Notes under the pieces: model-generated
Told to the model about the DNA's origin: nothing
Seen by the model: only the letters and a program-made list of their open reading frames with translations
Database searches by the model: none
In this document: positions 13,254 through 20,453 of the stretch, piece after piece
Position numbering within the stretch: the first letter of the stretch is position 1
Layout: every line of letters starts with the position of its first letter
Position numbers and translations under genes: made by a program
Assembly: GCA_944325535.1 (NCBI GenBank)
Contig: CALVAL010000007.1
Location: forward strand, 1 to 43,910
Reading direction: 5' to 3'
Length of the DNA: 43,910 nt
Source of the DNA: Candidatus Gastranaerophilales bacterium
Lineage (GTDB): Bacteria > Cyanobacteriota > Vampirovibrionia > Gastranaerophilales > Gastranaerophilaceae

Positions 13254-13372
13254 ATATTATAGATTAACTAAATAAAAAAAGCACTATTATTTTAAATAAA
13301 TTTACAATTATTTACATATACTAAGAGCAGATATTATAAGCTTATAAATTTTAAATTTATTTATATAAAACT

Positions 13373-20120: not shown

Positions 20121-20147
20121 TAAAAGTTAATGAAAATTTACACATAG

Positions 20148-20299
20148 AGTTTGCGGAAAAATTGACATTTTTCTCGCAAACTGCTGGGAACGGTTTCGCA
20201 TCAGGTTGTGTGCTATCCCGCACACGACCTGATGCTCACACACCTGAGGTCGGATTTGAAAAAATCTCAAAAATTTGTCAATTTTTGGATTTTTCCGCA
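20148..20299. repeat. Inverted-repeat element with a long central hairpin
   Basis: This fills most of the 318-base gap 20062-20379. The ends are inverted: TGCGGAAAAAT (20152-20162) pairs with ATTTTTCCGCA (20289-20299), and AAAAATTGACA (20157-20167) with TGTCAATTTTT (20276-20286). Inside, AGTTTGCG (20148-20155) pairs with CGCAAACT (20175-20182). A 16-bp hairpin, GCATCAGGT-T-GTGTGC (20198-20213) with GCACAC-G-ACCTGATGC (20220-20235), encloses a 6-base loop. The core is clearly GC-richer than its surroundings. It could be a small mobile repeat (MITE or REP type) or a structured RNA; the strand of any transcript is unknown. Confidence 0.6.
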
Positions 20300-20379
20300 T
20301 CCTCCATAAAAAGTTGTTGAAAAAATTTTATATTGTTGATATAGTTGAGAGGTAGGCTAGTTTGCCCTATATAGAATAA

Positions 20380-20453
<74 letters not shown>

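Follow-up and report, generated by a model that had tools for sequence, protein, structure and literature searches.

Bacterial MITEs such as ERIC, the Correia elements and, in cyanobacteria, Nezha (reviewed in PMC10969869) are short, gene-less, strongly structured intergenic repeats with inverted ends and multiple copies, and only a general preference for intergenic regions has been reported for prokaryotic MITEs (PMC10969869). Pneumococcal BOX elements are modular repeats made of exchangeable hairpin blocks (PMC10969869). The HLR1 box (G/T)TTACA(T/A)(T/A)NN(G/T)TTACA(T/A)(T/A) is the binding site of the cyanobacterial regulator RpaB and contains a tandem [GT]TTACA repeat with a 10-bp period (PMC11633204; PMC6331805), and Melainabacteria also possess RpaB, with no known role (PMC3787301). 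The element described below comes from a 43,910-nucleotide stretch of DNA analyzed as a whole (the window). It shares with ERIC, Correia and Nezha the properties listed above as well as, in the window copy, precise insertion with a target duplication, but is set apart by its ends (GAGNNTGCGGAAAAA), its clade, its modules and a strict register to a regulator-like box; a literature search for the exact end sequences GAGNNTGCGGAAAAA found no paper. From the BOX elements, which it resembles in its exchangeable hairpin blocks, it differs in sequence, host and clear 4-bp target duplications. The 10-bp-period tandem repeat at its target matches that of HLR1, although here it occurs in non-photosynthetic bacteria.

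The host is a gut-dwelling, non-photosynthetic cousin of cyanobacteria. The first-pass annotation had marked positions 20148–20299 of the window as an element with inverted ends, an 8-bp hairpin, a wobble-containing 16-bp central hairpin and a base composition unlike that of the flanks. All of these features were found and the element is discrete, but its limits are slightly wider (20147–20304), with GAG and CTC as the outermost bases and CATA duplications adjoining both ends (Table 1). It starts with GAGTTTGCGGAAAAAT and finishes with ATTTTTCCGCATCCTC, the terminal inverted repeats being imperfect; the arms TGCGGAAAAAT and ATTTTTCCGCA lie near the ends, and AAAAATTGACA (20157–20167) is placed opposite TGTCAATTTTT (20277–20287). 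The left end is closed by an 8-bp hairpin, and the central 16-bp stem pairs 20198–20213 with 20220–20235 through a single T.G wobble. The GC content rises from approximately 25% in the flanks to approximately 50% over the element core, that is, about twofold, and the single-strand fold is far stronger than that of dinucleotide shuffles on both strands (z of −7.5 and −7.2; 0 of 200 shuffles as strong).

Table 1. Positions in the window of the element, its parts and its neighbors.
Feature	Position	Strand	Basis
MITE, full length, 158 bp	20147..20304	+	Ends common to copies with unrelated flanks; locus precisely empty in three relatives
Left terminal inverted repeat GAGTTTGCGGAAAAAT	20147..20162	+	Conserved end in own-genome and relatives' copies
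Right terminal inverted repeat (GAGGATGCGGAAAAAT on minus strand)	20289..20304	-	Conserved end in own-genome and relatives' copies
Target-site duplication CATA, left copy	20143..20146	.	Only one CATA at the uninterrupted locus of three relatives
Target-site duplication CATA, right copy	20305..20308	.	Empty sites; perfect 4-bp duplication in 62/102 insertions
Proximal target half-site TTTACA, HLR1-like, 10 to 5 bp outside left end	20137..20142	+	Strict-register motif; also in empty sites
Left terminal hairpin P1, AGTTTGCG...CGCAAACT	20148..20182	+	Folding and copy alignment
Central hairpin P2, 16-bp stem, loop TATCCC	20198..20235	+	Two-sided changes at 14/16 pairs; 0/500 shuffles
Right terminal hairpin P4, AT-rich, conserved TGTC loop	20252..20302	+	Folding and copy alignment
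Promoter-like TTGAAA-17-TATAGT on tRNA side, outside element, intact	20317..20345	+	Consensus match only
tRNA-Arg(ACG), neighbor, outside element	20380..20453	+	

The copies leave little doubt about mobility. Sequences related to the element occur at approximately 30 places in its own genome (1.99 Mb in 114 contigs), with roughly 78% to 97% identity, and flank-inclusive alignment showed that the copies are alike from GAG to CTC, with nothing alike beyond. Of the 102 non-redundant insertions collected from this genome and its relatives, 62 are bordered by 4-bp duplications without a mismatch, and in a further 18 the duplication matches at 3 of 4 bases; in a first set of 84 insertions, 44 duplications were perfect, compared with a mean of 2.1 when the flanks were shuffled. 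The window locus is empty in three relatives (G037, G347, and G210), where it reads TTTACACATAAAAAGTTG, or, in its uninterrupted context, ...GAAAATTTACACATAAAAAGTTG..., with a single CATA. These loci prove the insertion and indicate that the window copy arrived after the split from the three relatives, the nearest of which shows 96% identity at this locus; the element is also missing from more distant relatives. With GAGNNTGCGGAAAAA as terminal inverted repeat at both ends of the copies, a length of 158 bp containing only short and spurious ORFs, and a dispersed, multicopy, intergenic distribution, the element is, close to certainly, a MITE, as one of the two readings initially offered, a non-autonomous mobile repeat, had anticipated. 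Copies are almost wholly intergenic: only 1 of 97 falls in a long ORF, and this one is probably a spurious pair of ends. Since they occupy many different intergenic places, the tRNA is an incidental neighbor. Orientation bias relative to genes was considered and is weak (29 same versus 20 opposite). In a distant genome from another family of the order (G025), 3 near-identical copies (L085:2010, L089:2087, and L090:2008) are flanked by duplications of apparently 3 bp, not 4.

The insertions are positioned to the base. Of the 80 insertions whose duplication matches at all 4 bases or at 3 of them, 34 have a half-site [GT]T[TA]AC, oriented towards the element, at exactly 10 bp outside an end, and 19 have one at 20 bp, compared with a mean of 0.92 at the other 26 registers and near-zero counts at the neighboring ones. 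Two half-sites 10 bp apart and in register (relaxed tandem) accompany 17 of the 80 insertions, and 9 carry the strict HLR1 sequence (G/T)TTACA(T/A)(T/A)NN(G/T)TTACA in register; the binomial P for the target motif is about 1e-45. The oriented logo holds 7.7 bits of information versus 3.2 in jittered controls, and the motif was found again in the loci of an independent scan. The two sides of the element carry it about evenly (24 and 28). TTTACA is already present in the empty sites of relatives, and thus the motif is not made by insertion. In the window copy, only the proximal half-site keeps the register, the upstream GTTAAT being degenerate and one base off. In 198 kb of the own genome, the tandem motif occurs 15 times, always in intergenic regions, versus 0.24 times in shuffles. 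Tandem HLR1-like boxes at window positions 13301 and 981 and at 13 further places in the own genome lie upstream of genes and represent a candidate RpaB regulon.

The tandem target motif equals the HLR1 core, and the genome encodes an RpaB ortholog scoring 346 bits against the curated cut-off of 330 for cyanobacterial RpaB. As sequence, the match of the target to a regulator box is strong; RpaB may bind these boxes, and either RpaB or the transposase may direct insertion. Tentatively, RpaB might guide the transposase to promoters, directly or via a transposase domain reading the same 10-bp tandem box, such that the MITE would be placed at a fixed distance with the boxes intact, amounting to transcription-factor-directed transposition. 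Alternatively, the target could be intrinsically bent A-tract promoter DNA rather than RpaB boxes, given that the motif contains A-runs in 10-bp phase; however, most of the information resides in the T-T-[TA]-A-C positions, and the exact register has near-zero neighbors, which makes bent DNA an unlikely explanation.

The interior of the element is modular. Element sizes are 30 bp (two ends only, L123), 57, 100, 157, 203, and about 280 to 319 bp, and other copies carry an optional 46-nt hairpin inserted after TTTG, at about 20276, the presence of which varies even between orthologous insertions (present in L276, absent from C22 of the own genome). Nearly all positions of the central 16-bp stem (P2) differ between subfamilies with pairing kept: two-sided changes affect 14 of the 16 pairs (90 cells versus 23 in shuffles, and none of 500 shuffles reached the observed value), while the loop TATCCC and the flanks AACGGTTTC and TCACACACC are nearly constant. 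Pairwise conservation is 82% to 84% in the P2 flanks and 67% in the stem, and an arm pairs at 92.5% of positions with its own partner versus 75.6% across copies. A second hairpin family (AGATTCTTCGGC...CTCAGAATGACG) is found in or next to elements with GAGNNTGCGGAAAAA ends (L111, L112, L113, L114, L116, L117, L118, and L133).

The initial alternative of an undescribed structured RNA had called for a look at compensatory changes, which are indeed present, in P2 only. Together with the variable stem and the invariant loop and flanks, they could mean that a dedicated structured non-coding RNA makes up the element, or part of it, and was spread secondarily by mobile ends. We consider this improbable. 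Departures from pairing in P2 are symmetric (29 G.U and 33 A.C), unlike what would be expected from selection on one RNA strand, so that neither strand stands out as the transcribed one; the core is missing from many copies that have the same ends (57, 46, and 30 bp); and the element moves as DNA. Rfam searches at gathering and relaxed thresholds returned only tRNAs and chance miRNA matches, with no match to the element, and no promoter-like site was found inside it. A candidate pseudoknot, GGGA/TCCC, showed no covariation. Furthermore, the P2 loop is inverted (GGGATA for TATCCC) in L025, L031, L083, L093, and L103, which suggests that template switching inside the hairpin rewrites the arms in DNA, a process itself able to keep them complementary. 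Template switching does not account for the conserved unpaired blocks, and transposition alone does not account for the strong covariation of the internal hairpin.

In at least 9 genomes of different genera, a short tyrosine integrase gene and hipB-hipA flank a copy at the same site, within DNA that is 81% to 92% identical at the nucleotide level between genomes, raising the question of whether the element is an attC-like recombination site of that integrase rather than a transposase-driven MITE. This is highly improbable: the same island exists without the element (L189 and L190, with integrase identities of 97% and 95%), and the own genome and G006 hold many copies but only distant integrase matches (24% to 59% identity, partly fragmentary), indicating that the element is a passenger on the island. 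Duplications of 4 bp and scattered single insertions are likewise what a transposase leaves, the integrase dependence of an attC site was not seen, and the tyrosine integrase was rejected as mobilizer. The compact integrase-hipBA island (L161:854-3085, with equivalents in L159, L160, L163, L166, L168, L172, and L173) is itself common to several genera and families. Finally, the minus-strand frame of 57 codons noted at the outset exists (20127–20300) and is open across the element, but the indels, optional 46-nt modules and entirely replaced stems of the copies, together with an equally open opposite strand (52 aa), make the chance that it is a gene negligible.

We therefore place a probability of about 0.93 on a MITE family with 4-bp duplications, a transposase acting in trans, a fixed register to HLR1-like boxes and gene-less, exchangeable hairpins; the family is new and unusual in that its target preference is exact to the base. 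A DDE-type transposase acting in trans would recognize the ends GAGNNTGCGGAAAAA. The duplications and empty sites show that the element inserts with a 4-bp staggered cut, and the sequences show that it does so at a set distance from a 10-bp repeat [GT]TTACANNNN, present once or twice in tandem and matching the HLR1/RpaB promoter box, which RpaB would bind. The interior consists of exchangeable hairpins without a gene, and the function of the element, if any, may be to maintain a hairpin, either in DNA or in a transcript. Carriage on other mobile islands, as observed for the integrase-hipBA island, aids its spread from genus to genus.

No autonomous copy, or transposase with the element's ends, was found in the searched genomes, which is weak evidence of absence because repeats fragment draft assemblies. 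Of four transposase families, PF07592 and PF13359 did not occur in any of the 28 searched genomes of the genus, nor PF01609 and PF13751 in the own genome; none of the four could be linked to the element ends as mobilizer. The list of ends in the own genome contains no inverted pair 0.8–3 kb apart, and end pairs 0.5–3.5 kb apart in the loci proved to be chance matches around housekeeping genes. IS1182-like (PF13751) relics in G006, from the same genus, have ends GAGGGTGTCCAAAAAGTC / GAGGATGACTAAAAAG and a subterminal hairpin resembling those of the element, but differ in three central end bases, display no visible 4-bp duplication and belong to a family absent from most MITE-rich genomes, and are thus a lead only. 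The relics (L150:1668-2016 and L151) are 348 bp long, retain the C-terminus of an IS1182-like transposase and are themselves MITE-like.

Among 289 genomes of the class, a model of the 85-nt core matched 33, almost all of them from one family. When 84,980 species genomes were scanned with a pattern, 86 stretches were retrieved, most of them labeled Candidatus Gastranaerophilales or gut/rumen MAGs and a few recorded under other labels (uncultured Ruminococcus, uncultured proteobacterium). GenBank phages and PLSDB plasmids yielded no match to the element, whereas one IMG/VR contig contains a copy. This copy (L287:11239-11470) has an extra hairpin module, and its contig carries both phage-like and host-like genes.

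The insertion point of this MITE is locked, to the base, to a global-regulator-like motif. If confirmed, the insertions would already map the RpaB sites of uncultured bacteria for which no role of RpaB is known, and would point to a simple way in which an element can integrate safely into a dense genome. The central hairpin, in turn, offers a clean test case for distinguishing selection on RNA from DNA-level correction of hairpin arms.
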